A stretch of DNA of 64,000 nucleotides from contig NZ_CP096247.1 in NCBI RefSeq assembly GCF_023204875.1, forward strand, positions 2,294,001 through 2,358,000. The letters are read 5' to 3'. This document shows, one piece after another, positions 1-49,892 of the stretch; positions within the stretch are counted from its first letter, which is position 1, and every line of letters starts with the position of its first letter. This DNA comes from Prevotella sp. E15-22 (lineage in GTDB: Bacteria > Bacteroidota > Bacteroidia > Bacteroidales > Bacteroidaceae). Both the position numbers and the translations under genes were made by a program. The notes below the pieces were generated by a model. The model saw only the letters and a program-made list of their open reading frames with translations, had not been told where the DNA came from and searched no databases.

Positions 1-3000
1 CTGCTGGGCTGGATTATACCACCACTGCTTATCGAGAGGTTCTTTAGGTGTGATGCTAAGTTTCAGCTGCAGCGAGTCGGCACCATAGACCTTGATCTTA
101 TTCTCGTCAACAACCTTCCATTTCACATTCACCTTGCGTCCATCCTTATTACGCGCCGATACTAACAGGCGCTTTGACTTCTTGCCGTGCTGAACCACAA
201 TCTGCGTATCGGGCAGAAGAGTAATCTCCTTCTGGAAGGTATTCTTGTTCTTGGGCAGTTCAGCAGCTTCTTTTTGTTGAGCCTTAGCATCCTTGGGATC
301 CTTCTGGTTCTTCGTATCTTTGGAATCCTTTGATTCATTAGAAGTTGTTGTTGTCTTCTTAGCAGGTTTCTTGGGCTGCGTGCTTATTGCCTTTTTGAAG
401 CGTTCATTAGTCTTCTTGAGGAATGGTATGTGGTTATAAAGCGTCTCCATGTTGAACGTGCCATTGACTGTGAGGTTGCGGTTGTTCGAGATAGTATTAC
501 CCAATGATGTGCCATCGTCGAGTTCTGTGCCACGCAGCCATGAATAGGTAGCAGTATAGGATGCGTCCGACTTCACCCAATCGAGGATGGGCAACTTATC
601 AAGTGGCAACTGATAGCTGGCCGAGAACGACTGCTGATAGTCGAGCGGTGTTCCCCAGTGCTTGATACTAGTCCAAACAGAGTCTTTCCATGCGGTATAA
701 CGATCGGGATAGAGGTCTTTGTTCACAGGAGTATAAGGCTCTTCGATCTCGGCATGGGTGGCACTCTGGAAACTCATGTGGAGGTTCTTGGTGAAATCCC
801 AACGTAACTGAAACTCACGGTTCCAAAGGAACTGCTGACTGAACGTCAACGGGAGACTTGGATTCTCGGTATTCTCGAGGTCACGCTCCTGAAGTTCATA
901 GTAGTTACGCATCAACTCTGAGTTGAATGAGATGTTCTGTGGCAAGTAATTGAAGCCAAGAGCCTTGGGGAACTGCATCCACTTAGACTTACTCTTAGAG
1001 TTCTTAAAGGGCTCCCAGGTCTTATAGACAGGCGAATAGTTGTAATTGACAGAGCCGCGCCACTGGTCATCGTTTTCATAAACGGTGGTCTGACCCGTGG
1101 TGTTACGATGGGCATGACTATACGAGAACGAGAAGTTGGCAGGGTCGATGGGCAACGGGAAACGTTTGTTCTTGATATCAACACGCATGTTGCTCAACGA
1201 GAAATTACGCGAGGTGTGTTTAGTCACAGCGATAGACTCGATAGAATCGCGCTCACGCTTATCGGCAGCCGACTCAAGAGCATCGTCGAGTTCCATATCG
1301 GTATCCAATGGATTGTACTTAGGACTGATAACCTCTTTTGTATAAGAATAATAAAGAGGTGCAGACACCTTGGCCTTTTCAGGGAACAGTTTTCCAAGTT
1401 CGAGGTTGGCCGTCACGGCATATGACTTCTGTGTATCAGTGGAGCGCTGAAGGATAGACTCTTCCAGTCCGCCAAAGCCATCGGTGATATAACGACCTGT
1501 CATGTTCACACTACCGAAGTCAGAAAGTTGTACGTTCAATGCGCCAGAGGCAGCCCAACCGCCTTCGTTGTTCGACTCACGCAGGCGCAACTCGTTGACC
1601 CACACTTCGCCCGACTTGATAGAACTACTGAGGTTGCGCACACCAATGACCATGGTCTTCACCTCGGCTAAGGAGGGGTTACCCACGATACTCACCTTGT
1701 TATTAGGTTTGTTTGGATCGTATTCAGAATACACCGCATTATAGCTGGCCAAGCCCTGACCACGTGCTTTATTTCTGCTTTTCTTCACTGCTGTGAAGAT
1801 GCTCATATCAATATCGAGCATATTTTCCTCGGGCCATACCAAAGGACGGTCGGAAGGCACGTTCCATCGGTAGTTGCCCTGAGGAGTGAGCTTCAAGGGA
1901 ATGAGGTATTCGTAGTAGTTATTCTTGTAGTCGGAACCCAAGCGGATGAAAACGGCTAATTGGTTATCCTCCAACTGGGTGTTGTTGGGCACCAAATGAT
2001 TGGCATGGACAAACATCTGTAGGCGTTTGTACTGACGCAGGTTCAGATTCTGATTCTTATAGACAGCCTTCGACTCGTTCTGTGAGAGGTTCTTTACAGT
2101 GAGACACAGCGCCTGTTCATTGCTCTCGGTGAGCTGAGGTTGGTTGGGGTCGGTCATACGAGTGATGCCTGGAGGCAGCACATAGGCCACAGGCTGGCGG
2201 TCGGTATTCTCCTCGACATTGACGGCACTCATCTCCAGCAAGCCTGTCTCAGCACCTGCCGAGGTCATGAGGTTCTGTTTGTACTGGCGCCACTCACCAC
2301 GAACGAGGTCGAGCGAACCGAAACGGAGGACAATAGGAGCCTCGAAGTTGGTAAGGAACATGCGCATATAGCGGATGCTGGTGAAGCCATTGATAGAACC
2401 AATCTTATCGTCGAACTCCGCCAGGGGAATGCGATACTGATACCAACGTACGGTGAGGGTGTCGCCATTGCGCAACTTGGCGGTGTAGTCACGGTGGTCT
2501 ACGATGTGCGAGTTATCAGACTTAACGCCATGGTTGTAGGCCTGGAGCTCATCATCGTTGATGGGAATATGATACTGATAGTAGCGCTCATACTCATTGA
2601 GGGTGTAGTCCTGATTAATATCCTCAACATCGGGCCCCGTTTTATAAGAGGTGTCATAGCCCTCGGTCTGATTATCGTTAGCAGGCGAGTTACCTTGGGG
2701 GTTGTTGATACGCTTGTAGCGCTCGAGGATACTGGTCTGCTTAGCATCGAAGTCGGAGCCACGGAAGTAATGATAGTCATCGCCAGCAGGATCCTCACGC
2801 CAAGCCTGAAGGAGTGAATCATTGCTCACAACAGAGCTAACACTGTTGAGCCAGTTGGCATAGCCACCATAGTGGCGCTCTTCTTCGTCGGTAAGTCCGT
2901 TTAAACCCACATCCTGCTTTTCGCGTGAGCCACTGGTGGTGGCAAAGGCATAGGTCTGTGTGGCCTGCACGGGAATCTTACCCCATTGAGTCTCTTCAAA

Positions 3001-6000
3001 CTGTGAGGTGCCGTCAACAGGCATGCCGCTCTCGTAGAACTTCTTGCCATCACGCAGTACATCCTCACTCACCTCACCCAGGTTGATATACAGGTCACCA
3101 CTATGTTTTGCAGCCGTACCTTCCTTACGGGTATAAATAAAGGGATCGAGCAACCAAAACTCCACATATTCAATATTAGCCTGTTCGAAGTCGGTGGTCT
3201 CAAGCCGACGCATCATGCCACCCCACTTTTGCTTAGGATTGCGCAGGGTACCATCGGCATTATAGTCGAGAGTCAGATTATAAGGACCTCGCTCCTGGGG
3301 ATAGTATGCCAGGTCGAGGATGGGCAGTGTGGACACAGCACCATTATAACTTGACTGGTCACGGTTGGGATAGAGCTCACGCACATAGACCTCACGAACA
3401 TAGTGGTTAGACAGCTGATCCAAGTCGTTCTTAATGTGTGAAGGTGTCAGACTCGACGAACGACGCGTAAAAATAGGGTCGACATTATACCATGCCAGTA
3501 AGGCACGCTCATAGCCACTGCTCACAGTGGTCTTATCATTGTGATTGGCAAACATGGAGGGGACACTACACAGCACCCAAGCCTTAGGATCACCTACGCC
3601 ACGCAAGTCCTTGGTATTCTCGAAGTCGTCGATATACGAGGCATTATCCTGCGTACCGCTGGCATTACGAGCAATGAGATGAGCAAACTCGCCAGTGAAG
3701 GAGACATGCGAGGGCTGGGTGACGTGAAGCAATGGGAGTTTATCCAAAACGTTCGTCAACCACTGACTCTCCTGCTTCCAGTTGACATTCAAGCCCCATA
3801 TAGTGTTGTTCAAAGGCTCATCACCCATATTCACCTTGGTGGTCATGGGTTGCTCAGTGAGATGCATCAGCGTACCACCCAACTGGAAACTCTTGCTGAA
3901 GTCGTACTCCCAGTTCATACCGAGCATGGTTTTGCGCTGCATGCCGTAGCTGGTATTATCCTCGAGCGACACGCTGACATTTGTTCCTGCATCGATGATG
4001 CTCTGGTTGAGAATAGTGACCTCACCGGCCGAGTAATCGACGGAGTAGTCACTACCTTCCTGAAGACGGACACCACCTGCGGTAACGACGACCGATCCTT
4101 CTGGCACAAAAGCAGCTCCAAGCGAGATAACGTTAGCACTGGTTCCCTTGAACTGACCAGTGAGGATATACTTATTTTTCTCGGCATTCTGTTTGGCAAC
4201 GGTCTTTGTAGAATCGTAGAGTTGGTCGAAGCAATATTTATCAGCCAAATCACCCATACCTTTCGACTCCAAATAATTGCGCAGATAATTACCAAAAGGC
4301 TCAGCGGCTGGCAGGAAGATGCGACCGTTGCTTACGGTATAACCGCTAACAAAGTCGAATTGTCCGTTGGGATGAGGTTTCATGTTGGCATCCAAGCGGT
4401 CCAAACCCATCACTTTCAATAGGGTGGTCTGCTTCAGTTGCTCCTCTGGGAGATAGGTCAAATAGGTACCTGTGGTGTCGCTTTGATACTTGATGTCCAT
4501 CTTGAACTTCTCCTTCTCGACAGTCGAAGCCAGATAATAGACGTTCTTCATCATGAGGCGCCAGTTAGCTTGTTCCGGATAGTTAGAAGTATTCTTCAGC
4601 GACTTCACGAAGAGGCACTTGCTGGTCTGCGTAACATCCGTAGAGAACTCACCCACCTGATAGGTCTGTCCGCCATAGGTATACTCAAAGGCCACAGCCA
4701 ACACCTGATCGGTTTGTAAACCTGTCTTCAGCGACACGTATCCCAAGGCTGTGTTTACCGTATACTCGCTCGATGAGAGTAAGCGAGCTGAGGCCAGTTT
4801 CTCGTAATCGACGCCGCCTACCAGTTTATTACCAAAACCCTCTAAGAACACCGTCACCTGATCAATGCTACGCGATGCGGAGTCGATGTTCTGAACAAGT
4901 GTAGAATAAAGGTCATTGGCCTGGTTACTAGACACCTTCATACCCGTGGGATGCCAGTTGGGGTTGATAATATAACTGTCTTCACCCAGTTCACTGAAGG
5001 CGACAAGGTTTCGAGAATTAGAAGTCGTTCCCGTCTTGTTGGTTACCCAAATCTCCACGCGATTAATCTTCACACCAGTTGTCAGGTTGGGCAGGGTACT
5101 CATAGCCTTGTCGTAATTCTGACGGAAGAAATGACTAAGGAAGAAATGGCGATTATCCTCATAATCGGCCACATTAATCTCGTAAGGATTGGTCTGTGTA
5201 CCACCACGCGAGGACACACTTTTTGAAGTGGACTTCTTCTGAGAGATGACCGTTTGCAGCTTTAACTTTCCAAATTGCATATCGGTGCGGATGCCAAAAA
5301 GGGCCGACGCGCCGTGAACCAAGGAGTTATTAGAGGGGAAGGTCACATTACCAGCCTCAACAAGTTTAATAATCTCGTCCTCCTTACCTTCATATTTCAA
5401 CTTGAGGTTCTTGCTATCGAAATCAAAGGTAGCATCTGTTCTGTAGTCGAGCTTCAAATTAACCTTATCGCCCACCTTACCCGTGACACTCAGGTTCACT
5501 TTCTCATCGAAGTCGAAGGCTGTGGTCTTTCGGTTACGAATAGGCAGTGAGGGATTTTCGATATTCTTCAACGTGGCACCCAACTTCAGTTCGGCCGTTC
5601 CTTGTGTCTTTACGCGAACGCCTCCTGGACCGAAGATTTTCTCGGCAGGACCGAGGTCGAAATGCATATCACTAAAATCGAACTTCTCCTTACCTTTAGC
5701 ACGGGCGGTCTCGGCATCCTTGGTACGGAAGAACTGCTGACGGGCGCGACGTTCGCTCCAGCGCATATATTCGGCAGGAGTCATCACGACGGGGGCGTTC
5801 AGATAACTGTCACCCAACTTCGAACCAATATAATAAAGATTAAGAGAGTCATTATACTCCACCTGCTGCCGCACATTATCGGGCATACGCAGGTCGAGCG
5901 CACTGGTATCCAAGTCGGCCGTAATCACAGGGGCCGTCTTCTGAATCTTCCAGCGTGGATGTGATAATGAATCGGGTGTCTGGGCCGTCGCCCCTACCCC

Positions 6001-6039
6001 TATCATCACTATGAGGAGTAAATATATGAATCGTTTCAA
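1..6039 (-). CDS. sprA: SprA/Sov, T9SS outer-membrane translocon (3' end outside window)
   Basis: SprA is the very large beta-barrel pore through which type IX secretion cargo crosses the outer membrane. The minus-strand frame stays open for 2013 codons and runs off position 1; the family is about 2400 residues, so roughly the last fifth is missing. The start is a TTG at 6037-6039: no ATG lies between it and the upstream in-frame stop, and it yields a good signal peptide (KRFIYLLLIVMIGVGATAQ). The N-terminal region reads PVVMTPAEYMRW, then GPGGVRVKTQGTAELKLG, KLDYRTDATFDFDSKNLKLK and FPSNNSLVHGASALFGIRTD, all typical of SprA. It lies directly downstream of ruvA, as in many Bacteroidota, with a hairpin between them. 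Identity is recognised from memory of the family; the start codon is inferred. Confidence 0.93.
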   Translation of the reverse strand, partial: MKRFIYLLLIVMIGVGATAQTPDSLSHPRWKIQKTAPVITADLDTSALDLRMPDNVRQQVEYNDSLNLYYIGSKLGDSYLNAPVVMTPAEYMRWSERRARQQFFRTKDAETARAKGKEKFDFSDMHFDLGPAEKIFGPGGVRVKTQGTAELKLGATLKNIENPSLPIRNRKTTAFDFDEKVNLSVTGKVGDKVNLKLDYRTDATFDFDSKNLKLKYEGKEDEIIKLVEAGNVTFPSNNSLVHGASALFGIRTDMQFGKLKLQTVISQKKSTSKSVSSRGGTQTNPYEINVADYEDNRHFFLSHFFRQNYDKAMSTLPNLTTGVKINRVEIWVTNKTGTTSNSRNLVAFSELGEDSYIINPNWHPTGMKVSSNQANDLYSTLVQNIDSASRSIDQVTVFLEGFGNKLVGGVDYEKLASARLLSSSEYTVNTALGYVSLKTGLQTDQVLAVAFEYTYGGQTYQVGEFSTDVTQTSKCLFVKSLKNTSNYPEQANWRLMMKNVYYLASTVEKEKFKMDIKYQSDTTGTYLTYLPEEQLKQTTLLKVMGLDRLDANMKPHPNGQFDFVSGYTVSNGRIFLPAAEPFGNYLRNYLESKGMGDLADKYCFDQLYDSTKTVAKQNAEKNKYILTGQFKGTSANVISLGAAFVPEGSVVVTAGGVRLQEGSDYSVDYSAGEVTILNQSIIDAGTNVSVSLEDNTSYGMQRKTMLGMNWEYDFSKSFQLGGTLMHLTEQPMTTKVNMGDEPLNNTIWGLNVNWKQESQWLTNVLDKLPLLHVTQPSHVSFTGEFAHLIARNASGTQDNASYIDDFENTKDLRGVGDPKAWVLCSVPSMFANHNDKTTVSSGYERALLAWYNVDPIFTRRSSSLTPSHIKNDLDQLSNHYVREVYVRELYPNRDQSSYNGAVSTLPILDLAYYPQERGPYNLTLDYNADGTLRNPKQKWGGMMRRLETTDFEQANIEYVEFWLLDPFIYTRKEGTAAKHSGDLYINLGEVSEDVLRDGKKFYESGMPVDGTSQFEETQWGKIPVQATQTYAFATTSGSREKQDVGLNGLTDEEERHYGGYANWLNSVSSVVSNDSLLQAWREDPAGDDYHYFRGSDFDAKQTSILERYKRINNPQGNSPANDNQTEGYDTSYKTGPDVEDINQDYTLNEYERYYQYHIPINDDELQAYNHGVKSDNSHIVDHRDYTAKLRNGDTLTVRWYQYRIPLAEFDDKIGSINGFTSIRYMRMFLTNFEAPIVLRFGSLDLVRGEWRQYKQNLMTSAGAETGLLEMSAVNVEENTDRQPVAYVLPPGITRMTDPNQPQLTESNEQALCLTVKNLSQNESKAVYKNQNLNLRQYKRLQMFVHANHLVPNNTQLEDNQLAVFIRLGSDYKNNYYEYLIPLKLTPQGNYRWNVPSDRPLVWPEENMLDIDMSIFTAVKKSRNKARGQGLASYNAVYSEYDPNKPNNKVSIVGNPSLAEVKTMVIGVRNLSSSIKSGEVWVNELRLRESNNEGGWAASGALNVQLSDFGSVNMTGRYITDGFGGLEESILQRSTDTQKSYAVTANLELGKLFPEKAKVSAPLYYSYTKEVISPKYNPLDTDMELDDALESAADKRERDSIESIAVTKHTSRNFSLSNMRVDIKNKRFPLPIDPANFSFSYSHAHRNTTGQTTVYENDDQWRGSVNYNYSPVYKTWEPFKNSKSKSKWMQFPKALGFNYLPQNISFNSELMRNYYELQERDLENTENPSLPLTFSQQFLWNREFQLRWDFTKNLHMSFQSATHAEIEEPYTPVNKDLYPDRYTAWKDSVWTSIKHWGTPLDYQQSFSASYQLPLDKLPILDWVKSDASYTATYSWLRGTELDDGTSLGNTISNNRNLTVNGTFNMETLYNHIPFLKKTNERFKKAISTQPKKPAKKTTTTSNESKDSKDTKNQKDPKDAKAQQKEAAELPKNKNTFQKEITLLPDTQIVVQHGKKSKRLLVSARNKDGRKVNVKWKVVDENKIKVYGADSLQLKLSITPKEPLDKQWWYNPAQQ

Positions 6040-39383: not shown

Positions 39384-40397
39384 TCATTGCTTCCGCCTGG
39401 CAATGATATAGATAATCACAGGGGCTCCCATTACAGGAGTGACAGCATTCAGGGGAATGACGCCCGACTCGCCCGGCAGGAAACAAATGGCATTGCAAAT
39501 CAAGGCGATGACAGCGCCACAGAGGATAGTGCCAGGCATCAGGATGCGATGGTTTGACTGGCGAAACAAGAGATTAGCAATATGAGGCACTGCCAGTCCG
39601 ATGAACATAATGGGGCCACAATAGGCCGTGGTGATAGCCGTCAAAAGGCCTGTGACAATGATGAGCCAATTGCGCACTCTGCGTGTGTTCACACCCAGGT
39701 TCTCAGCATACTGCTCGCCTAAGAGCAAGGCGTTGAGGGGTTTCACAAGGAGCAGGGCACCCACCAGTCCCACCATGCAGAGAGATGAAAAGAGGGGAAT
39801 CTGACTCATCGGCACGCCACCAAAGGAGCCCATGCCCCACACCATATAGGATTTAACGCCCTCGTCGGTGGCAAAGAAATTGAGTAGTGCCACCACGCTA
39901 TTGGCGATATAACCAATCATGATGCCCACGATGAGCAGCATCACATTATTGCGCACCATGGTACTGAAAAGGAAGATAAGTCCCATCACGACCATCGCTC
40001 CCACGAAAGCAGCAGCAAGCACGGCCATAAAGCCCGAGATACTGACAGAACCCACGGAGAGCGAGCCTCCCAGTGCCAGCATCACCAAGGCCACGCCAAC
40101 GCCTGCGCCACTGTTAATGCCAAAGATGCTGGGGCCTGCCAAGGGATTCTTGAACGCCGTCTGGAGCATCAGTCCACTCACTGCCAACGAGCCTCCACAG
40201 AGCATCGCCGTGATAGCCTGTGGCAGTCGACTCTCCATGATAATAAAATGCCATGAGGGACGGGCTGCCTGGTGACCAGTGACAATGCTGACAACATCGC
40301 GAAGTGGAATGGATACCGACCCCACGGCCAGGTTGACGGCCAGCAGCACAACAACCATCAAAGCCAGCAGACAACAAATGACAACGCCTCGCTTCAC
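39384..40397 (-). CDS. btuC: FecCD/BtuC-type ABC transporter permease
   Basis: Inner-membrane permease, here probably for cobalamin because it lies in a cobalamin-riboswitch operon. The 337-residue protein is almost entirely hydrophobic (about nine to ten membrane segments) with the family signatures ITAMLCGGSLAVSGLMLQ, NPLAGPSIFGINSGAGVGV, LLLGEQYAENLGVN (the loop that contacts the ATPase) and GPIMFIGLAVPHIANLL. It uses a GTG start at 40397; the stop upstream in frame is only a few codons away and the first membrane segment begins right after it. The partner ATPase (BtuD) is not encoded on either side. Confidence 0.9.
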   Translation of the reverse strand: MKRGVVICCLLALMVVVLLAVNLAVGSVSIPLRDVVSIVTGHQAARPSWHFIIMESRLPQAITAMLCGGSLAVSGLMLQTAFKNPLAGPSIFGINSGAGVGVALVMLALGGSLSVGSVSISGFMAVLAAAFVGAMVVMGLIFLFSTMVRNNVMLLIVGIMIGYIANSVVALLNFFATDEGVKSYMVWGMGSFGGVPMSQIPLFSSLCMVGLVGALLLVKPLNALLLGEQYAENLGVNTRRVRNWLIIVTGLLTAITTAYCGPIMFIGLAVPHIANLLFRQSNHRILMPGTILCGAVIALICNAICFLPGESGVIPLNAVTPVMGAPVIIYIIARRKQ

Positions 40398-40412
40398 TTT
40401 CTTGCTTCCTTT

Positions 40413-41552
40413 TTACTCTTTTATCTTTTTATAATAACGCAAAGACGACATTCCTATTATGTCAGGATGCAGAATTTGCATAAAATCGCTGAGCAGGCGT
40501 TCTGGATGGAAAGGTGTGTCCTCATAGAATGACGAGAGTTCCACATTGCAGCCATAGACCTCACGATTGCGGAAGGCTCTTAATTGACTATAGCCATGAT
40601 AATCAGACAGCAGTTCATCATAGGTCAGCTCGTGGTCACTCGAATAACGCAGCATCCACACATCGGCCTCCCCTGCCCTTTCGAGTACGGCCTCAAAAGG
40701 CAATGACAGCGAGCCACTCTGCTCGTCATCAGCCCATGGATAACGGGCTCCCGCATCCTTCAGCATCTGTCCAATGGTACTTTTTCCGCCAGGCATATAC
40801 CATACCGTTCCTGCAATCTTGTCAATGATAACTGAACGACCAGGCCCTATCTTCTCACACTGTTGCTTATAGGCCGTATAGCAGCTGTTCACCTGATGGA
40901 AGAGTCGATCAGCCTTCTCGCTCACGCCAAAGAGCAGACCATAGAAGCGCATCCACTCGGCTCGCGCCAGAGGTGAGGTCTCCATATACTCGGCACATTC
41001 GATGATTGGGATGCCTATCTCTTCAGTCTTGCCGTAGCCTCCGCTATTTTCGAAGGGCGACAGCAGAATGGCATCGGGCTTTACGTCCATAATCTTCTCG
41101 ACCACAGGATTCAAGCCATTGCCACAATCCACAATGCGGCCCGCCTTGAGTTGCTGCTGAACATAGGGCACCTTGACATACTTCGCATCGGCCACCGCCA
41201 CAATATGACTACCCAGTCCTAACTCAGTTAGTAAGGCGCAATGAACGGTGGTGAAAACGGCTGCGCGCTGAATGGGCGTACGAACGATGGTGCCATCGGA
41301 GAAGTCGGATGACTGGATGTCAATGTCCGATTCGCGAGGCACAAGGTAATAACGATGCAGAAGCTTGCCCGGCTTCCACGGATTACTGATATCGGCCACC
41401 GTATAGCCATCGTGCTCAACAACAGAAAGCAGCGACGAATAATGAAAGACCAACGTATCGCCAACCTCCTGTTGGCGAACGGAATGTCCGCCACAGGAGG
41501 TCAGGAATACGAAGATCGATATACAGAGAGAATAATAAATAGAATGTCTCAT
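40413..41552 (-). CDS. btuF: ABC transporter substrate-binding lipoprotein, BtuF-like
   Basis: A 379-residue binding protein of the cluster A-2 (BtuF/FepB) type that would deliver cobalamin to the BtuC permease. Lipobox LTSC (Cys20). The two lobes are separated by a long helix (about residues 205-245); recognisable parts are VVEKIMDVKPDAILLSPFEN, IIECAEYMETSPLARAEWMR and WYMPGGKSTIGQMLKDAG. It is the fourth gene of the operon, 3 bases after the large surface protein and 15 bases before btuC. Confidence 0.87.
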   Translation of the reverse strand: MRHSIYYSLCISIFVFLTSCGGHSVRQQEVGDTLVFHYSSLLSVVEHDGYTVADISNPWKPGKLLHRYYLVPRESDIDIQSSDFSDGTIVRTPIQRAAVFTTVHCALLTELGLGSHIVAVADAKYVKVPYVQQQLKAGRIVDCGNGLNPVVEKIMDVKPDAILLSPFENSGGYGKTEEIGIPIIECAEYMETSPLARAEWMRFYGLLFGVSEKADRLFHQVNSCYTAYKQQCEKIGPGRSVIIDKIAGTVWYMPGGKSTIGQMLKDAGARYPWADDEQSGSLSLPFEAVLERAGEADVWMLRYSSDHELTYDELLSDYHGYSQLRAFRNREVYGCNVELSSFYEDTPFHPERLLSDFMQILHPDIIGMSSLRYYKKIKE

Positions 41553-41555
41553 CGA

Positions 41556-44500
41556 TTACTTCACAACGATTTTGCGAACAGAGCCATCAGGCATGCGAAC
41601 GATATTCACACCCTTGTGCAGGCCAGATGCGTTCACACCCTTCAGGTCGTAATAGTTCTTCTGCATCTTGGCAGCAGAGAATTCGCTGATACCTGTTGTG
41701 ATGTCTACATTCTTCTCAGGCAGCACCTCTTCACCCTCGGCTCCAAAGTTGTCGAAGCAGAAGTAGGCAGGTGTGTTCATACCCCAGTCGCCATTGTCAG
41801 TGCTGGTAAGTGCGAAGCTCAACTTGCTCACCTTGCCAAGACCAGAAAGGTCGACATAGCGCCAGTCGTTGATGATATAAGCCTTAGCCTCATCACGCAA
41901 GTCGGCCAGATAATATTCCTTCGTGCCAGTCTCTGCACCTTCAGCGTCGTAGCCCTTGATAGTCAGTTTGAACCAGTCGTCCTTGCCGAACTTCTTTGAA
42001 TAGGCATCGCCATTGAGCATGGAGGTATAGGCATAAGCAGAGTTGGTGATATAGAAGCCAGGAACGACAATGCCACCCTCATGATTCAAAACAGTGATGT
42101 TGCAAGGACCATAGTAGGCTGAAGCATAACCTACGCCATAGTTCTTTGAGCCATCGTAGCCACCGCCCACGATATTGTTCCACTGGTCATCAAGACTCTC
42201 GTACTTCGTGGAAGTGCTGTTGGCATAGCCAAAGAACCACCAAGAAGCCCACTCACTCATGCAACCAGTAGAGAACTGGAAGTCGCCACTTGTAAACTCT
42301 GTGCGTTCGTCATCTTCAGCAGTAGATACACTCATATGGCTCTCTGCTGCCAATTCGAGGTTCTCGAAGTCGGCCATCTCAAGTGGGAACTCTACGTTCT
42401 TCTCAGGCAGCACCTCCTCGCCTTCGGCACCAAAGTTATCGAAACAGAAGTAAGCAGGTGTGTTCATGCCCCAGTCGCCATTGTCAGTGCTGCTAAGCTC
42501 GAAGCCGAGCTTGCTCACCTTGCCCAGACCAGAGAGGTCGACATAACGCCAATCGTTGATGATGTAAGCCTTATTGGGGTCACGAAGGTCGGCCAGATAG
42601 AAGTCCTTCGTGCCAGTCACTTCGTTGTTAGCGTCATAACCTGTGATAGTCACCTTGAACCAGTCGCCCTTACCAAACTTCTTAGCAAAGCTGTCGCCAC
42701 CCGTCAGGGAGTTGTAGGCATAGGCTGAGTTGGTGATATAGAAGCCAGGAACGACATCACCTGTTGAGTTATGCATCACGTCAACATAGCAAGGACCATT
42801 GAAGGCTGCAGCATAGGCCACGCCATAGTTCTTTGAACCAGCATAGCCACCACCTACGACGTTCTTCCACTGGTCATCGAGCGAAGCGTAGGTATTGTCA
42901 CTATGGCTGGCATAGCCAAACCAGTACCAGTAGTCCCAGTCGCTCATGCAACCAGTATGGAACTGGTATGTACCACTGGTAAACTCAGTGCGTTCGTCGT
43001 CCTCAGCAGTAGTCACACTCATATGACTCTCAGCAGCCAGTTCGATATCTTCAAAGTCGGCTACTTTCGCATCAACAACAACAGGAGCATAACTAACGAA
43101 CAGTGTCGAATCGGAAGTAACCTCGCTGATAGCCTCGCCATTCTCCTGTGTCAGCCATGTGGGATAGAGGCCATTGACAGGTTCGAACTCAGGCAGAGCA
43201 CCGTTGGTATAAATTGAATCGCTGTCCTCAGAGAGGCTAGTGGTGAACTTCACCATAAACACCTTTGGACCATCGATAACAGGATGTGCATCAGTGCCAA
43301 GGGTCTGACCAAAGGCCTCACCCAGCAGGCGAGCCACATAGCCCGACTTCATCTGCTCATCAGTAACAGTGGTCTGACTGGTAACAATGCCATATTCCTG
43401 TGTTGCGAAGGCATTCTTCACATTATCCTTCTTCGTGGTTCCACCCACACAAGCACCAACGGTGGTACCTTCAACAGCACCCACGTTGAATACATTCTCG
43501 ATGACAGCTGAAGCATTGTTTGAACCTGCAACACCGCCACAGTTGGTAGTACCTGTTATGTTGCCAGTATTATAACTGTTGGTCACCTTCGCCGTCTGAA
43601 CGCCTGCATAACCAGTGATACCACCTACATAAGTAGAAGCACCTGTAATCTTGGCATTATTCACACAACGGTCGATAGTTGAATTGGCACCCATATTAGC
43701 CGCAATACCAGCCACATACTGTTTGGCAGAAACCTCACCCTCGACAGTCACATTGCTGATAGTAGCATCCTTCAGATAAGCAAAGAGGGCCTGATAGGTT
43801 GCTGTAGCATTGGTGATATAGAGACCCTTAACGGTATGTCCCTTACCATCAAACGCGCCCTGATAAGCCTTGGCTGTTGTGGTGCCACCAATAGGTGTCC
43901 ATGCATAGTCGCCCAGGTCGATATCAGCAGTCAGCACGGCTTTCGTCTTATATTGTCCGCCATTCACCTGATTAGCAAACCAAGCCAGTTCTGCGCCTGT
44001 GCCAATCTGATAAACATCCTCTACGACAGCAGGCTCAGTCTGTGTTGCTCCGTCCCATGTAGCAGCATCGGCAGCAGTCAATGCTACGTTGAAGGTCTGC
44101 TCACCCTCAGCATCATCGGCAATGGTATAGGTATGGCGATAGCAGCGATAGCCTGCTTTCGAAGCTGTCAGCGCATAGTCACCATAGGTACCTGTATAAG
44201 TTCCATCGTCATTGAGAGCAACAGCCACGCCATTGCGTGTCAGAGTATAGTTGACATCCTCCTGGTCGCACAGCAAACGAATGATGAACTGCTTGGCTTC
44301 CTTGATGGGAATACGAACCTCTGGAATAGCACCAAAATAGGTCTTGTGTGCAATAGCCGCGAAATTGGCCGAGCGTCCCGTCAGGCGACTGGTGTTACGA
44401 TGGTTTCCAATAGGATCGCCATAACCGTTCACCTGGATTACGCCCTCGTTCAACAGCAATGCTTCGCTACCATCATCAGGAATGGTCACCGTAACGGCCT

Positions 44501-46322
44501 GAGCTGCAGGAACAGAACCAAAGGTATACTGACCACTACCCAGAATCAGAGAAGTGCCGTTGGGGATGCCGTTATAGGTCACATAGGCCGACATATTATA
44601 GATACCAGCCATCTTATTGGCAGGATGGCGCAGACCAGAGTATTGAATCTTCACCTGGTCACCAGGAATGAAGGTCGTACTGTTATTACGGGTGACATTA
44701 GTAATGTCGCGATGACATTTCTTGGCAGTCAGCACCTGATAAACAGAATTGCCAGCAATATCGGTCAGTCGAACAATCTGACGACCTTCTTTCAACAATA
44801 AGGTGTAAGAACCGTCTTCGTTCTTGGTTACACCTGTCGTTCCGAAGCCTGTATAGGTTGCCATCTGCTCGCCTATTGTGGGATAGGCAATTTCTACATT
44901 CTCTACACCAGTAGGTTTGAAGGTATAGGCAAAGCCTTCTTCTGTATCCAGATAGTAGAACACATCGTGCTCGGCATCAACGTATTTGCCGGCCAGTTTC
45001 TTGGTGTCCTCATTGTATGATTCATTGATCACCATATTAGGCTCGATAGCTGTAACACCACCACCCACGGTCACCACATAGGCTGCAGTATTCTCTGGCC
45101 AGATGGCACTCCAATACTCACCACCCATATAGGTGTTCTTCGTCGTATTGCTATAGTAGTTCAGTCCGATGGCATCATAGGTCACAAGCACAATAGCCGT
45201 GCCGTTTCCTACAGCCTTGATGGTAGCCCAAGGATCGCCTGCAGTCTCTTCGATAGCAATCACATCGGTGCTGGGAGTACCATCAAGTCCGATTACAGTA
45301 TAGTGGAAGTCGGGCTCCATGAAATAGTTGTTCGTAGAGTTGTCGGTCAACTCCCATGAACGCATGGCATGCGCATCAAAGGTGTCGCCCACATTCAGCT
45401 TCAGGTGACCACGCTCATTGATATTCACAAAGATATCACCTGTTTCATAGCCACCATTCCAATGCACATCGTGCTTGATGGTTTTTGCGCCAAAGGCCTC
45501 GTAGTCGGCATCGGTAAAGGCCAGCACAGGACGTTTGGTCTCGTCCAGATTCATGGTAAAATAGCCTGCCTGTGTCAGTCCGCCACTCTTCCATGTACGA
45601 TAGTTATATGTCTGACTATTAGCCAAGCGATAGGTCAGTTTCTTGTTGCCGCCCTCGTTTTCCACAGCCTTTGGTTCAACCTTGGTGAAGGCAATAAAAT
45701 GACTGAACTTCATGCCCAAGAAGAACTCGGCATCAGCGGGCACTGTGATGGTATAGTCGGCTCCCTGAGGAATAGCACCAGAGATATTAATACCTCCAGT
45801 CAGCGTACCCTGCTTGTAGAGCGTCATGTAGTCCTCTGCCTGATGAGCTTCACTGGGAATCAGGGCAGCATAATAACTATTTCCATTCAAAGCCAGGAAC
45901 GTCTTGCGATTGGCAGTAATGCTGTTACCAATGGTAATCGTCTGCTTGACTCCTTCACGAGTGTTCACAGTCACCTCGATGGTGTAGTCATTGTCAACCA
46001 CCCAATCTTTGTTGGTGGCATAAATGGTGTTAGTAAGCACCTTGAACTCCTGTTCAGCCTCATCGGTCACATTGAGCTCAATGGTACCGTTAACAGTGTT
46101 GTCCTTCGTGCCATAGGCTGTCAGCACATAGACACCAGGAGCAACATCGAACGAATAGATCTTGCCACTTGGTTCGCCTACGTCAACGGCATCGCCTGTG
46201 GTTTTCTCAGCCAGACTCATGGTGGGCGATGTACTGTTCATCTCCACCTTTACGCTGGCTGCATTAGCAATGTTTACTACAAACATAACTAATGCCATGA
46301 TACTTAGTAATAGTCTTTTCAT
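41556..46322 (-). CDS. 1588-residue surface protein with tandem DUF4465 domains (BtuH-like)
   Basis: A very large exported protein within the B12 operon. It has a signal peptide (MKRLLLSIMALVMFVVNIANA) with no lipobox. Regions: N-terminal beta-rich part (about 25-430); repeated carbohydrate- or Ig-like modules (430-760); GLUG-type repeats around residues 870-980 (GGITGYAGVQTAKVTNSYN); two nearly identical DUF4465 domains (about 1085-1300 and 1312-1530), each with VPGFYITNSAYAY and INDWRYVDLSGLGKVSKL; and a C-terminal segment YYDLKGV...GSVRKIVVK resembling T9SS sorting tails. From memory, DUF4465-type proteins (BtuH) bind B12 on the Bacteroides surface. Cobalamin binding by this protein is inferred from locus and domain; the role of the long N-terminal part is unknown. 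Confidence 0.75.
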   Translation of the reverse strand: MKRLLLSIMALVMFVVNIANAASVKVEMNSTSPTMSLAEKTTGDAVDVGEPSGKIYSFDVAPGVYVLTAYGTKDNTVNGTIELNVTDEAEQEFKVLTNTIYATNKDWVVDNDYTIEVTVNTREGVKQTITIGNSITANRKTFLALNGNSYYAALIPSEAHQAEDYMTLYKQGTLTGGINISGAIPQGADYTITVPADAEFFLGMKFSHFIAFTKVEPKAVENEGGNKKLTYRLANSQTYNYRTWKSGGLTQAGYFTMNLDETKRPVLAFTDADYEAFGAKTIKHDVHWNGGYETGDIFVNINERGHLKLNVGDTFDAHAMRSWELTDNSTNNYFMEPDFHYTVIGLDGTPSTDVIAIEETAGDPWATIKAVGNGTAIVLVTYDAIGLNYYSNTTKNTYMGGEYWSAIWPENTAAYVVTVGGGVTAIEPNMVINESYNEDTKKLAGKYVDAEHDVFYYLDTEEGFAYTFKPTGVENVEIAYPTIGEQMATYTGFGTTGVTKNEDGSYTLLLKEGRQIVRLTDIAGNSVYQVLTAKKCHRDITNVTRNNSTTFIPGDQVKIQYSGLRHPANKMAGIYNMSAYVTYNGIPNGTSLILGSGQYTFGSVPAAQAVTVTIPDDGSEALLLNEGVIQVNGYGDPIGNHRNTSRLTGRSANFAAIAHKTYFGAIPEVRIPIKEAKQFIIRLLCDQEDVNYTLTRNGVAVALNDDGTYTGTYGDYALTASKAGYRCYRHTYTIADDAEGEQTFNVALTAADAATWDGATQTEPAVVEDVYQIGTGAELAWFANQVNGGQYKTKAVLTADIDLGDYAWTPIGGTTTAKAYQGAFDGKGHTVKGLYITNATATYQALFAYLKDATISNVTVEGEVSAKQYVAGIAANMGANSTIDRCVNNAKITGASTYVGGITGYAGVQTAKVTNSYNTGNITGTTNCGGVAGSNNASAVIENVFNVGAVEGTTVGACVGGTTKKDNVKNAFATQEYGIVTSQTTVTDEQMKSGYVARLLGEAFGQTLGTDAHPVIDGPKVFMVKFTTSLSEDSDSIYTNGALPEFEPVNGLYPTWLTQENGEAISEVTSDSTLFVSYAPVVVDAKVADFEDIELAAESHMSVTTAEDDERTEFTSGTYQFHTGCMSDWDYWYWFGYASHSDNTYASLDDQWKNVVGGGYAGSKNYGVAYAAAFNGPCYVDVMHNSTGDVVPGFYITNSAYAYNSLTGGDSFAKKFGKGDWFKVTITGYDANNEVTGTKDFYLADLRDPNKAYIINDWRYVDLSGLGKVSKLGFELSSTDNGDWGMNTPAYFCFDNFGAEGEEVLPEKNVEFPLEMADFENLELAAESHMSVSTAEDDERTEFTSGDFQFSTGCMSEWASWWFFGYANSTSTKYESLDDQWNNIVGGGYDGSKNYGVGYASAYYGPCNITVLNHEGGIVVPGFYITNSAYAYTSMLNGDAYSKKFGKDDWFKLTIKGYDAEGAETGTKEYYLADLRDEAKAYIINDWRYVDLSGLGKVSKLSFALTSTDNGDWGMNTPAYFCFDNFGAEGEEVLPEKNVDITTGISEFSAAKMQKNYYDLKGVNASGLHKGVNIVRMPDGSVRKIVVK
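41730..43065 (-). repeat. Tandem duplication encoding two DUF4465 domains
   Basis: Two adjacent units of about 650 bases (roughly 41730-42385 and 42405-43065) encode DUF4465 domains that differ at few residues. Nucleotide identity is high too, for example CAGGTGTGTTCAT and CCCCAGTCGCCATTGTCAGT occur in both at matching offsets. This points to a fairly recent in-frame duplication, or ongoing gene conversion. Confidence 0.85.
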
Positions 46323-46353
46323 AATTGGTAATTATTAAAAAAGTTTGTTTATT

Positions 46354-47619
46354 CTATTTCGCAATGAATGTCTTACCATCTCTGACGTACAGGCGTCCAT
46401 GCTGAGGAACAGCGATGCGCTGTCCTTGCATGTTGAACAGCATTGATACTTGAGATTGGGGATTCACAGTTTGTACAATACCATTGGACTGTTCATCGGG
46501 CTGAAGGGCCAGGAAGTGGGCCGGATTAATATAAACCTTATGTTTGCCCAGCAGTTCTCCTTCTGGTGACCATTGATAAAGCAGGCCTGCAGCAGCAAAC
46601 GAGCCAGCATCAGTTCCGTAGATATAACCTGTGTAGGGATTGACATACAGGCCATAGGGCATACCCATCTGTTTAATGTCGTCCAACACATTGCCTGGCA
46701 ACGTCTCTTCCACGCCGCTACCTCCCAAGCTAGTCATCACTTCCTCTGGATCAATCGTGATATAATTGAACTCGTACTCATTCGTGTAGTATGAGAAACG
46801 AGAACCTATAGCCAAGAACTTACCATCGAGAGTGGTACAACTATAGGTAGAGGCATAGTCTAACTTCACAAAGCAATCTGCATCGCCCTGCAGGGCCTTT
46901 TCGCAATCGAAGATGATGCAGGCAGCAGGGATTTCATAGTAGTCGCCAGGTGAGTTGATGCAGAGGTAGCGACCACTTTGCGGCATCTTGCCATACAGGT
47001 TAATTTGCTCTACATCGACATTCTTCTCCAGTTCCATTGTGGCGGCATTAACAATGCTCACTGTGGTTTCATATTCGTGGTCTTCTTCAAAGGCATAGCC
47101 ACCCGTATTGGCCACAAAAAGCCTGCCATCATAGAGGGCGATGCCTTCTGGTTCGTAGCCTACCTCGGTAGCAGCAACGACCTTGAAGGTGGACACGTCA
47201 ATCTTGGCCACATACCCCTTTTCGAAGTATTTCATGCCATCCACCGTGGCGCACTCGTGTCCGTAGCTGGTGATATAGACATACTGCCCATCGGAGCACA
47301 GTTTGCGATTGTTGGGAATATCCTCAGTAGCTGCCACAGCTGTGCCATCAGGCCTAATGAACTGCACGATGTTCGACCAGTTGACAGCAATGGCGATGAG
47401 GGTGTCGTTCACCTGAATAATATCGTTGGGAGTGTCGCCTATCTTCATGCCGTTCTTTTCGCGAAACCACTGATTGCTCACCACATGGTCGTCTTCAAAA
47501 TAGGTAACGCGTCCGTTGTCGGCCTGCCACATGCCTTCGTTCAGCAGGATGAGTTTCTCTTGGGCATCGACAACGATGACCAGCAGAAACGACAGGGTTA
47601 GAAGGATATATTTCTTCAT
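46354..47619 (-). CDS. btuG: BtuG-like beta-propeller, cobalamin surface-binding candidate
   Basis: A 421-residue YncE-type seven-bladed propeller: repeated blade signatures such as GQYVYITSYG, KGYVAKIDVSTFKVVA, EPEGIALYDGRLFVANTGG and PYGLYVNPYTGYIYGTDAG. In Bacteroides, BtuG is a surface lipoprotein that binds B12 very tightly and caps BtuB. Here the gene directly follows the BtuB-like receptor. Unlike known BtuG, it has a plain signal peptide (MKKYILLTLSFLLVIVVDAQ) without cysteine, and ends in LFNMQGQRI...GRLYVRDGKTFIAK, a T9SS-like tail. The ATG at 47619 is preferred over a TTG at 47640. Confidence 0.8.
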   Translation of the reverse strand: MKKYILLTLSFLLVIVVDAQEKLILLNEGMWQADNGRVTYFEDDHVVSNQWFREKNGMKIGDTPNDIIQVNDTLIAIAVNWSNIVQFIRPDGTAVAATEDIPNNRKLCSDGQYVYITSYGHECATVDGMKYFEKGYVAKIDVSTFKVVAATEVGYEPEGIALYDGRLFVANTGGYAFEEDHEYETTVSIVNAATMELEKNVDVEQINLYGKMPQSGRYLCINSPGDYYEIPAACIIFDCEKALQGDADCFVKLDYASTYSCTTLDGKFLAIGSRFSYYTNEYEFNYITIDPEEVMTSLGGSGVEETLPGNVLDDIKQMGMPYGLYVNPYTGYIYGTDAGSFAAAGLLYQWSPEGELLGKHKVYINPAHFLALQPDEQSNGIVQTVNPQSQVSMLFNMQGQRIAVPQHGRLYVRDGKTFIAK

Positions 47620-47629
47620 CTCAGAATGA

Positions 47630-49597
47630 TTAAATTCCAAATGTCAATGTCAATTTGTAATTACGCCCCGGCATCGGATAGCGAGGGATATGCTCATACT
47701 GTTCGTCGAGTAAATCGATGATTTCCAAGCAGGCTCCCACAGAGGTCTTTCCTATTGTAGTACTATATGAGAGCTTTGCATCAATGTTATGATAGGGCTT
47801 CAGGATATCCTCTGGGTCGGCATAGCTCCACATACGTTCGCCCACATACATATGGCTGACCGTAAGCGATAACTGGCGCCAAGCAGCGATGGCAGTGATG
47901 GTGTGCGACAGGCGGGGTGAATAGCAGATAGGCTTGTCGTAGGTATCTTCATCATTAGGATCGGTGCGATTCACATCACGCTGCCAGGTCAGTGTGCCCA
48001 ACAACGACAATTGCCAATCACGAAGTTGATAGCGACCAGAGGCGGTGGCATTGAGTCCTTGACAGAAAGTATAGCCATAGTTCATCATTGTCCAGGTATA
48101 GGTGCCTTTCAGGGGCAGACAAACGATACGGTTCTCTATCTTGTTCTGATAGGCATCGGCCTGAACATTCAATGCCCATTGCCTGTTATTCCAATGGTAT
48201 TCCATCCCGATGTTCCACTGTTTCGTGTATTCTGGCTGCAAGTCGCGGTTACCCACCTGCGTATAATAAAGGTCGTTGAGTGTGGGAGCACGGAAAATCT
48301 TCTTGTACCAAGCACGAAGGGTTAATTCACTCTGTGAACTGCTTGGATTGAAGGTATAGGCCAGTGACACAGCTGGCGTCCAGCGATCCAAAGGGTCGGC
48401 AGCACCTGCATGCACATTGGTGAAGTCGTGCAGATGTTGATGAAGCATCGATACGGCAGCCTGAACACCTTTGAGATTCATCTGCGCAGCCACCACCTCT
48501 TTTTGATCCAAACGGAACACACTACTGAAGCGTTTCAAGTCGGCCCACAATTTACTATAACGCACATCATAACTCGTGGATAACGAGAGCCAGGTCCAAG
48601 GCATATAGCCATAGCACAGAGCGCCATAGCCATCCTCCTGTCGATAGTGGTTATCCACGCGGGCAGTGTTTTGATTCTCAGGATAGTCAGTGCAATAGCG
48701 CAGATACTCGTTGGTATATTTGGCATTGGCCTTCACACGATGATGGTCCAAGAACTCCTGCTGATAACTGGCTTGCACAAAGAAGTCTCTGTCCCACTCA
48801 CGACCCACATTGATATACTTGTCACTCAGTCGGCGCACGATGCCTCCAGGACAACCACGTTCTGAGTCATAATAATAAAGATGTGATGAAAAGCCACCCT
48901 TGAACAGGGCGCCCTCAACGCGACCATAGCGGATATCACTGTTGGCACGACGCCCCACGGTGTCCTCATACTCAGAGTGATAGCGGAATGGATAGTCTCC
49001 CTCAGAATCGCACCACTCGCCATCAAGGAAACCACTCCACCCTCTCCACGCAAACTGGGCGTTGGCTTTGACCATATAGGTTGAGAAGGAGGCACGGCGT
49101 AACTGTACTGACAAGGAATCGCTGATGGGTCGACGGGTACGCAGATAGACCGTGGCACCAGAGGCATACTCGCTGGCCGACTGGCAGTTGTCCAACTTAT
49201 TGGCATTATAAAGCGACACGCTCTCCATCGACGATAATGAGAACTTACCCAAGTCTACAGTACCATTCTGGGCATTGGTGATGCAAATGCCATCCACATA
49301 GACACCCACATGCTGGGCACCCATCGAGCGAACATTGATGGTCTTCAAGCCACCCAGTCCGCCATAGTCCTTAATCTGCACACCAGAGAAATACTTCAGG
49401 GCATCGGCCACCGATGTGGTGGACAGAGCCTGAAGATCGGCACCACGCAGGGTCTGTGCTGTGGCAAGTGGTCGTTTTCCATACACCTCCACTTCGCTAA
49501 TCTCTTGCAAAGAGTCAAGACTAGCGGGTTGCTGCGAATGGGCAACAACAAATGAAGCAAGGATGCACAGCAAAAGCAACGCACAACGTTTTGTCAT
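47630..49597 (-). CDS. btuB: TonB-dependent receptor, BtuB-like (cobalamin)
   Basis: Outer-membrane beta-barrel transporter energised by TonB. The 655-residue precursor has a signal peptide (cleavage near VVAHSQ), a TonB-box-like EISEVEVYGKR, a plug domain (about 45-160; DALKYFSGVQIKDYGGLGGL, NVRSMGAQHVGVYVDGI) and a barrel ending in the aromatic/hydrophobic C-terminus YKLTLTFGI. It is the first gene behind a cobalamin riboswitch, which gives the substrate. The lack of an N-terminal carboxypeptidase-like domain and its size separate it from SusC-type receptors. Confidence 0.93.
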   Translation of the reverse strand: MTKRCALLLLCILASFVVAHSQQPASLDSLQEISEVEVYGKRPLATAQTLRGADLQALSTTSVADALKYFSGVQIKDYGGLGGLKTINVRSMGAQHVGVYVDGICITNAQNGTVDLGKFSLSSMESVSLYNANKLDNCQSASEYASGATVYLRTRRPISDSLSVQLRRASFSTYMVKANAQFAWRGWSGFLDGEWCDSEGDYPFRYHSEYEDTVGRRANSDIRYGRVEGALFKGGFSSHLYYYDSERGCPGGIVRRLSDKYINVGREWDRDFFVQASYQQEFLDHHRVKANAKYTNEYLRYCTDYPENQNTARVDNHYRQEDGYGALCYGYMPWTWLSLSTSYDVRYSKLWADLKRFSSVFRLDQKEVVAAQMNLKGVQAAVSMLHQHLHDFTNVHAGAADPLDRWTPAVSLAYTFNPSSSQSELTLRAWYKKIFRAPTLNDLYYTQVGNRDLQPEYTKQWNIGMEYHWNNRQWALNVQADAYQNKIENRIVCLPLKGTYTWTMMNYGYTFCQGLNATASGRYQLRDWQLSLLGTLTWQRDVNRTDPNDEDTYDKPICYSPRLSHTITAIAAWRQLSLTVSHMYVGERMWSYADPEDILKPYHNIDAKLSYSTTIGKTSVGACLEIIDLLDEQYEHIPRYPMPGRNYKLTLTFGI

Positions 49598-49657
49598 ATC
49601 GTTTGTTATTATCGCCTCGTGCCCTTACATCGAGAGCAGTCGGCAGTATTTCTAATG

Positions 49658-49838
49658 AAGGCTGGTCTTCTGACTTTCCTCCACCCCAAGAGGCCTTCTC
49701 ATCCAATTGGACAATGGCATTTGTTCCTTAGGGCATAATGAAGTTCACAGCTGCGGGACAGTCGGGGATTCTCACCCAATCCATTTCATGGACCTACGTT
49801 CCCAATTAAGCGCGGCTAAGCGCACCTCCATAGGCCTT
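49658..49838 (-). ncRNA. Cobalamin riboswitch (AdoCbl type)
   Basis: On the minus strand the leader shows the conserved cobalamin-element blocks in order: GGTGCGCTTAGCC, TTGGGAACG, GGTGAGAATCCCCGACTGTC, CCCGCAGCTGTGA, AATGCCATTG and the 3' signature AGTCAGAAGACCAGCC (49675-49660). The ends AAGGC (49838-49834) and GCCTT (49662-49658) can form the closing stem. It lies 61 bases before the btuB-like start and should repress the operon when B12 is plentiful, probably by blocking ribosome access, as no strong terminator follows. Confidence 0.93.
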
Positions 49839-49861
49839 ACTCGAAAAAGTAAATGCAGTTG

Positions 49862-49892
49862 CAAAGGTAGTAATTAAAACTGAAACGCCAAA
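49862..49892 (-). promoter_or_regulatory. Promoter of the B12 operon
   Basis: On the minus strand TTTG (49892-49889) and TACCTTTG (49869-49862) are 19 bases apart. The predicted start of transcription is just upstream of the riboswitch. Confidence 0.8.

Follow-up and report, generated by a model that had tools for sequence, protein, structure and literature searches.

The genome of Prevotella sp. E15-22 encodes, in the 64,000-nucleotide window analysed here (contig NZ_CP096247.1, positions 2,294,001 to 2,358,000, part of one 3.3-Mb contig), an operon for the uptake of vitamin B12, two proteins of which carry plain signal peptides and short C-terminal tails in the place of lipid anchors. These are a BtuG-type beta-propeller of 421 amino acids, counted from its ATG (46354..47619, minus strand), with a signal peptide of the signal peptidase I (SPI) type, and a BtuJ-like protein of 1588 amino acids with two DUF4465 domains and a cysteine-free signal peptide (41556..46322, minus strand; PF14717, 358.7 bits). 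Export of both proteins by the type IX secretion system (T9SS) appears likely, and the complete interpretation, according to which a divergent BtuG and a BtuJ-like protein would be exported by the T9SS via a short tail replacing the lipid anchor and would capture B12, is given a probability of about 0.86. It is preferred because of the co-occurrence of the tail with the T9SS component PorU, the alternation of lipobox and tail among related proteins, the missing N-terminal linker of the tail-type propellers, and the resemblance between the tail and the second half of the classical C-terminal signal of T9SS substrates.

As already stated in the original prediction, neither of the two proteins has a lipobox cysteine in its signal peptide. 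The propeller starts with MKKYILL..VDAQEK, which contains no cysteine, does not match the lipobox of surface lipoproteins and has a cleavage site between DA and QE; this fits the trend for Gln to follow the cleavage site, which is reported for most SPI substrates of Bacteroidetes (PMC5837995). The DUF4465 protein starts with MKRLLLS..NIANAAS, likewise a signal peptide without cysteine. Lipoboxes and signal peptides were called throughout by simple rules and not by SignalP. The tails noted in the same prediction are also present beyond chance: the C-terminal 30 residues of the propeller (46357..46446, minus strand) and the end of the DUF4465 protein (41559..41660, minus strand) match a tail profile (A1) with E-values of 2.5e-15 and 3.1e-9, respectively. 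Note that both are themselves rows of this profile, whose 17 rows are the DUF4465 tail and tails taken from near homologs of the propeller, and that the remaining places found in the same genome are independent of it. In this genome, 66 places match the profile at E<=10, and 52 of them remain at E<0.005, with the propeller at rank 1 and the DUF4465 protein at rank 6. In the 51 of these 52 places that were read (368210-368266, with an E-value of 0.00387, was left out), the match ends 0-3 codons from the stop in 50 proteins, and 50 have a signal-peptide-like N-terminus. The tail is equally regular among the nearest homologs listed, being present in 119 of 120 propellers and 112 of 120 DUF4465 proteins, with five terminal dockerins and three narrow misses among the other eight; no match was obtained with 240 reversed tails as control. 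In a set of 80 named loci, kept from 129 contig loci and in many cases titled ruminant-gut metagenome-assembled genomes of Prevotella, Prevotellaceae or Bacteroidaceae, 78 of the 80 propellers carry the tail, the others being a narrow miss (L272, E-value of 0.0019) and a dockerin protein (L313). The 49 DUF4465 proteins of these loci comprise 39 with the tail, five that run off the contig, one with a dockerin recognized by pattern and four others, namely L245 with a dockerin found by Pfam, L276 with a dockerin-like end as judged by eye, and the near misses L289 and L314. A third protein of the window ends in the same tail (E-value of 3.1e-8), a LacZ-type beta-galactosidase of 1320 amino acids with a plain signal peptide (53425-57387, minus strand), whose gene lies downstream of a SusC/SusD-like pair.

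The tail probably represents a short form, of about 30 amino acids, resembling the last two motifs (D-E) of the classical T9SS C-terminal signal. An alignment with hhalign against 11 classical C-terminal domains (CTDs) of the same genome, taken from the 16 TIGR04183 places described below (the nine above the cut-off and two more), gave a score of 24.3 and placed the tail on the second half of the CTD, named D-E here after a review (PMC10202324), and none of 100 column-permuted controls reached this value (best score 15.7). The two proteins share with type A cargo of the T9SS, as defined by the TIGR04183 CTD, the signal peptide, a C-terminal signal, a genome with PorU, PorV, PorM and SprA, and the alignment just described. 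They differ from such cargo in that the tail spans only some 30 amino acids and lacks the first half of a CTD, which is described as 70-100 amino acids long (PMC11285876), and in that the stock models are blind to it. TIGR04183 finds 16 places in the genome at E<=1, nine of them above the cut-off and none in the operon; since it also fires at E<=1 in 13 of 14 control genomes, only those nine were counted. The 16 TIGR04183 places and the 66 short-tail places at E<=10 are nearly disjoint, and the two that overlap by coordinates are weak in both searches.

The tail is also associated with the secretion machinery itself. Searches for T9SS components covered SprA, PorU, PorV and PorM, and the genome encodes, besides SprA, PorU (987 bits), PorM/GldM (556 bits) and two PorV-family proteins (best 432 bits). 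PorU was above the cut-off in 113 of the 151 genomes of the family, the weak matches in G027 and G083 being counted as negative, and the tail profile (E<=0.001) was found in 106 of the 113 PorU-positive versus none of the 38 PorU-negative genomes (Fisher p 6e-29, a value that ignores phylogeny); the tail counts per genome are lower bounds, as at most 54 candidates were scored in each. A contrast within a genus points in the same direction, since in g6 a single genome (G080) has PorU, and it is also the only one with tails. The co-occurrence bears on the alternative that both proteins stay in the periplasm, with the tail as a structural end-piece and B12 being buffered behind BtuB. This would agree with the failure of the stock T9SS models to detect the tail, but appears highly improbable in view of the tail-free PorU-negative genomes, of the about 50 otherwise dissimilar proteins of this genome that carry the tail, the LacZ-type beta-galactosidase among them, of its resemblance to motifs D-E as compared to the permuted controls, and of the solved complexes, in which BtuG covers BtuB like a lid from the outside (PMC10404256). 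The gene for the T9SS translocon SprA/Sov, which was correctly predicted to lie in the window (1..6039, minus strand, its C-terminal end reaching beyond the window edge; TIGR04189, 2219.8 bits for the part inside), was rejected as evidence for export by proximity, because it is 33 kb away and codes for a general component.

T9SS export via a tail that replaces the lipid anchor is further suggested by the related proteins of the 151 genomes, in which lipobox and tail behave as alternatives in both families. Propeller homologs occur in 76 places of 68 genomes, all of which were read and which include distant YncE-like lipoproteins down to an E-value of 3e-11; 11 have the tail, all in PorU-positive genomes, and 65 show a lipobox with acidic residues after it (39 in PorU-positive and 26 in PorU-negative genomes). 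One of the tail-type propellers, that of G037, contains a cysteine within the hydrophobic core as well. In a tree of 62 of the 76 rows, calculated by a quick method with matches of less than 250 amino acids dropped and tails trimmed, and subject to long-branch warnings, the 11 tail-type propellers form one side of a branch (SH-like approximate likelihood ratio support of 100, length 2.74). They also differ at the N-terminus: the distance from the mature N-terminus to the conserved Glu of strand 1 is 8 amino acids in 10 of the 11 tail-type propellers versus a median of 31 in 42 lipid-type ones. The corresponding stretch forms, in the BtuB2G2 structure, a linker along the extracellular loops EL2 and EL11 of BtuB and a possible hinge (PMC10404256). 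With this shorter spacing, the tail form lacks about 23 residues of the N-terminal linker and instead has a C-terminal linker before the tail, so that the tether of BtuG appears to have been shifted from the N- to the C-terminus. In propellers of other families, the tail was found in none of the 27 places read out of 55 at the order level (those with loci; at most seven candidates per genome were scored), 25 of which show a lipobox and two have N-termini that allowed no call (L222 and L228).

The DUF4465 proteins show the same alternation, with 69 places corresponding to 64 proteins in 54 of the 151 genomes. Tails are present in 14, all from PorU-positive genomes, and lipoboxes in 46 (25 from PorU-positive and 21 from PorU-negative genomes); the remaining four were called neither, comprising one with a classical-looking end (G009), two with weak tail-like ends (G018 and G037) and G070:C14, which shows the sequence LASCDESE and was entered as lipobox protein in the tree. 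In the DUF4465 domain tree, where the placement of the long branches G142:C70 and G057 is uncertain, the tail state needs five changes, either gains or losses, four of which are forced by starred branches. As far as these branches hold, a single origin of the tail state in DUF4465 proteins is thus ruled out. Because G025 and G124 combine a BtuG lipoprotein with a tailed DUF4465 protein, the anchor exchange in the latter family is, by this comparison, independent of that in BtuG.

As judged from its relatives and its genomic context, the propeller is a divergent BtuG. Solved BtuG structures are its top matches both by sequence, with about 20% identity, and by fold, the fold comparison covering residues 14-378 of the predicted model only (the tail has predicted confidence (pLDDT) values of 62-70), and the gene has a btuB neighbour and a cobalamin riboswitch, as expected for a BtuG. 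With a numbering offset of 31, deduced in the analysis, the loop of BtuG2 that holds the ligand (Asn54-Thr64) falls on NEGMWQADNGR of the propeller, and Tyr316 corresponds to Y322, a residue shared by all 37 rows of the A2 alignment and by all 42 lipid-type rows; the position of Tyr335 is occupied by Phe, and Trp194 and Trp272 fall outside the sequence alignment. The protein could alternatively be some other seven-bladed ligand-binding propeller which was recruited to the B12 operon and does not bind B12, as might be read from the low identity, the long stem branch, the Phe at the Tyr335 position and the two uncovered Trp residues. There is only a slim chance of this, considering that the BtuG structures lead both the sequence and the fold matches, that the Asn54-Thr64 loop and the invariant tyrosine are kept, and that riboswitch and BtuB are neighbours. 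B12 binding by the tail-type propellers is presumed here, and one-to-one orthology of tail-type and lipid-type BtuG is not claimed because of the long stem branch. Compared to BtuG1-3 of the BtuB-BtuG complexes of B. thetaiotaomicron, where BtuG is N-terminally lipidated with its linker running along EL2 and EL11 of BtuB (PMC10404256), the propeller described here has neither lipobox nor N-terminal linker and ends in a T9SS-type tail.

The second protein had been taken for a BtuH, a label that did not hold: Pfam and PDB matches place it in the DUF4465/BtuJ family, and BtuH was rejected on the Pfam result, no BtuH model having been run by name. BtuH is likewise described as a surface B12 binder of Bacteroides operons (PMC8941943), and Pfam assigned no such family here. 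Both full DUF4465 domains lie in the C-terminal part, at residues 1128-1297 (42432..42941, minus strand; PF14717, 193.4 bits) and 1357-1526 (41745..42254, minus strand; PF14717, 193.9 bits), and each contains the motif MNTPAY. The PDB matches are six DUF4465 chains or related hypothetical proteins, two of them named as BtuJ1 (9FCT) and BtuJ2 (9I2L). On these grounds the protein is a member of the BtuJ (DUF4465) family, and B12 binding is predicted. The features common to it and BtuJ/DUF4465 (IPR027828) are the two full domains, the NTPAY motif and an ITNSAYAY segment; BtuJ1 and BtuJ2 are reported to be lipoproteins (PMC12751083), whereas the present protein has 1588 amino acids with domains in tandem, an SPI-type signal and a tail. 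Its near homologs reach 2557 amino acids, and two of those scanned, a set including P0148 and P0196, have three DUF4465 domains.

Several observations weigh against T9SS export of a tail-borne BtuG and BtuJ. Scans with all NCBIfam and Pfam-A models at E<=1, among which TIGR04131 and PF18962 (the latter named as a T9SS sorting-domain model in a review, PMC10202324) are assumed to be contained, gave no T9SS model on either protein. The check by T9SS models that had been proposed with the original prediction thus turned out negative for TIGR04183 as well as for these scans, as the stock models do not see the short form; the replacement of lipid anchors by T9SS-type tails is supported by the PorU link, the alternation, the linker and the CTD similarity. 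The hhalign probability of the D-E match is 66.7% only. The association of PorU with the tail is confounded by phylogeny, and seven PorU-positive genomes have no tail match, G004 and G099 of the same genus as the genome studied here as well as G005, G029 and, from g3, G089, G098 and G115. A long stem of 2.74 substitutions per site separates the tail-type propeller from known BtuG. Finally, a cysteine fitting a loose lipobox rule occurs in seven of the 51 tail proteins read in the genome (in six it lies within the hydrophobic stretch or at its end, and in one it follows an AQ site), in 17 of the 120 near propeller homologs listed (eight of them printed), in three of the 39 DUF4465 proteins with a tail from the named loci, and, in the 151 genomes, in one of the 11 tail-type propellers and one of the 14 tail-type DUF4465 proteins. 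Where the sequences were inspected, most of these cysteines are part of the hydrophobic core and are followed by an SPI-like site; by the rule, such proteins may still be lipidated.

Starting from the features established by sequence, i.e., the operon and its riboswitch, the protein families, the missing lipoboxes, the tails, the T9SS genes and the alternation of anchors, the following course of events may be envisaged. The riboswitch would allow the operon to be expressed when B12 is scarce; the signal peptides would direct both proteins to the periplasm, where the tails would be read by T9SS parts such as PorM and PorV, and the proteins would pass through SprA and have their tails removed by PorU. 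They would then remain at the cell surface, attached perhaps to lipopolysaccharide, or be released. BtuG would capture B12 and hand it over to BtuB, and the BtuJ-like protein would act as an additional collector. It is possible, though less likely than not, that release by PorU turns the BtuJ-like protein, and perhaps the propeller, into a soluble B12 scavenger instead of a surface-fixed lid; a review states that release occurs for a significant part of the T9SS substrates (PMC10202324), BtuJ is reported to act on vesicles in B. thetaiotaomicron (PMC12751083), and the DUF4465 protein is large and multi-domain. In 73 of the 80 named loci, btuB directly precedes the propeller gene, which argues instead for a lid on BtuB. 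Such a release would be a branch of T9SS export and not its opposite, and the sequence is compatible with both release and attachment.

In a few relatives, a dockerin takes the position of the tail. The propeller L313:8998-10338 ends in a dockerin type I domain (PF00404, 43.1 bits) next to a DUF4465 protein that keeps the tail, and the DUF4465 protein L245:10270-14421 ends in a dockerin (36.4 bits), with its propeller keeping the tail. The five dockerin proteins among the 120 near DUF4465 homologs listed are P0148, P0214, P0216, P0222 and P0230, two of them being assigned by Pfam (32.7 and 38.5 bits) and the other three by a precomputed label together with DxNxDG repeats. All ten genomes with at least 11 dockerin matches, out of the 151, are PorU-positive, which is weak by itself as 113 are. 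In four dockerin-rich PorU-positive genomes, the dockerin lies no more than 32 codons from the stop in 17 of the 20 places read, which were picked from the top of the list; of these 17 proteins, 15 begin with what looks like a signal peptide and one does not, and the N-terminus of the remaining one was not covered. In the PorU-negative genomes, the dockerin is located 137-152 codons inside in all six places read out of 19. The C-terminal module might accordingly be imagined as an exchangeable address label, the terminal dockerin being either a second, so far unrecognised T9SS export signal or a link to a cohesin scaffold on the cell surface in a cellulosome-like B12 collector; we regard this as unlikely, and the dockerin exchange as a lead rather than a demonstrated mechanism.

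The remaining parts of the operon agree with the predicted arrangement of a cobalamin riboswitch over btuB- and btuG-like genes together with btuF and btuC, which is confirmed by the riboswitch score and the family matches. On the minus strand, the riboswitch (49643..49844; RF00174, 79.4 bits at a gathering score of 31.5) is followed, at close spacing, by a gene for a btuB-like TonB-dependent transporter of 655 amino acids (47630..49597; Pfam plug and barrel above the cut-off), the propeller and DUF4465 genes, a gene for a btuF-like substrate-binding lipoprotein with the lipobox FLTSCGG (40413..41552; PF01497, 83.3 bits) and a gene for a btuC-like permease (39384..40397; PF01032, 245.6 bits). 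The top NCBIfam matches of the btuB- and btuC-like genes, TIGR01779 (TonB-B12, 107.6 bits) and NF003001 (BtuC, 187.5 bits), are under the equivalog cut-offs. No btuD adjoins btuF and btuC (39384-41552), the next open reading frame downstream being on the opposite strand; the ATPase gene was not sought elsewhere. The cobalamin riboswitch was found in all related loci given to the scan (10 of 10, and seven of seven from the 80 named loci), and in one related locus a thiamine pyrophosphate riboswitch adjoins it on the opposite strand (L262:6363-6458, minus strand). The operon is patchy in its own genus, by transfer or loss: among the 15 genomes searched, the tail-type propeller is confined to the present one, lipid-type homologs occur in three, and the other 11 have no homolog.

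Those proteins for B12 capture that have been studied in gut Bacteroides are lipoproteins of the cell surface. No paper linking BtuG, DUF4465 or B12 uptake to type IX secretion was found, as judged from the listed entries, in a search that did not extend to preprints and most subscription journals; the one paper containing both BtuG and type IX secretion has them only among its references. In a 2026 survey, DUF4465 proteins that are not lipoproteins are said to carry signals for targeting to the periplasm (PMC13398666). The new feature, as far as can be deduced from sequences, is that BtuG and BtuJ seem to exist in forms with the lipid anchor exchanged for a short T9SS-type tail. If the tails are T9SS signals, a part of the non-lipoprotein DUF4465 set would be extracellular, and the stock T9SS model would overlook a short tail on about 50 proteins of this genome. 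The lipid anchor would have been swapped repeatedly for a C-terminal export tag, which in BtuG is located at the opposite end of the protein, and the competition for B12 in Prevotella-like gut bacteria would depend on the T9SS.

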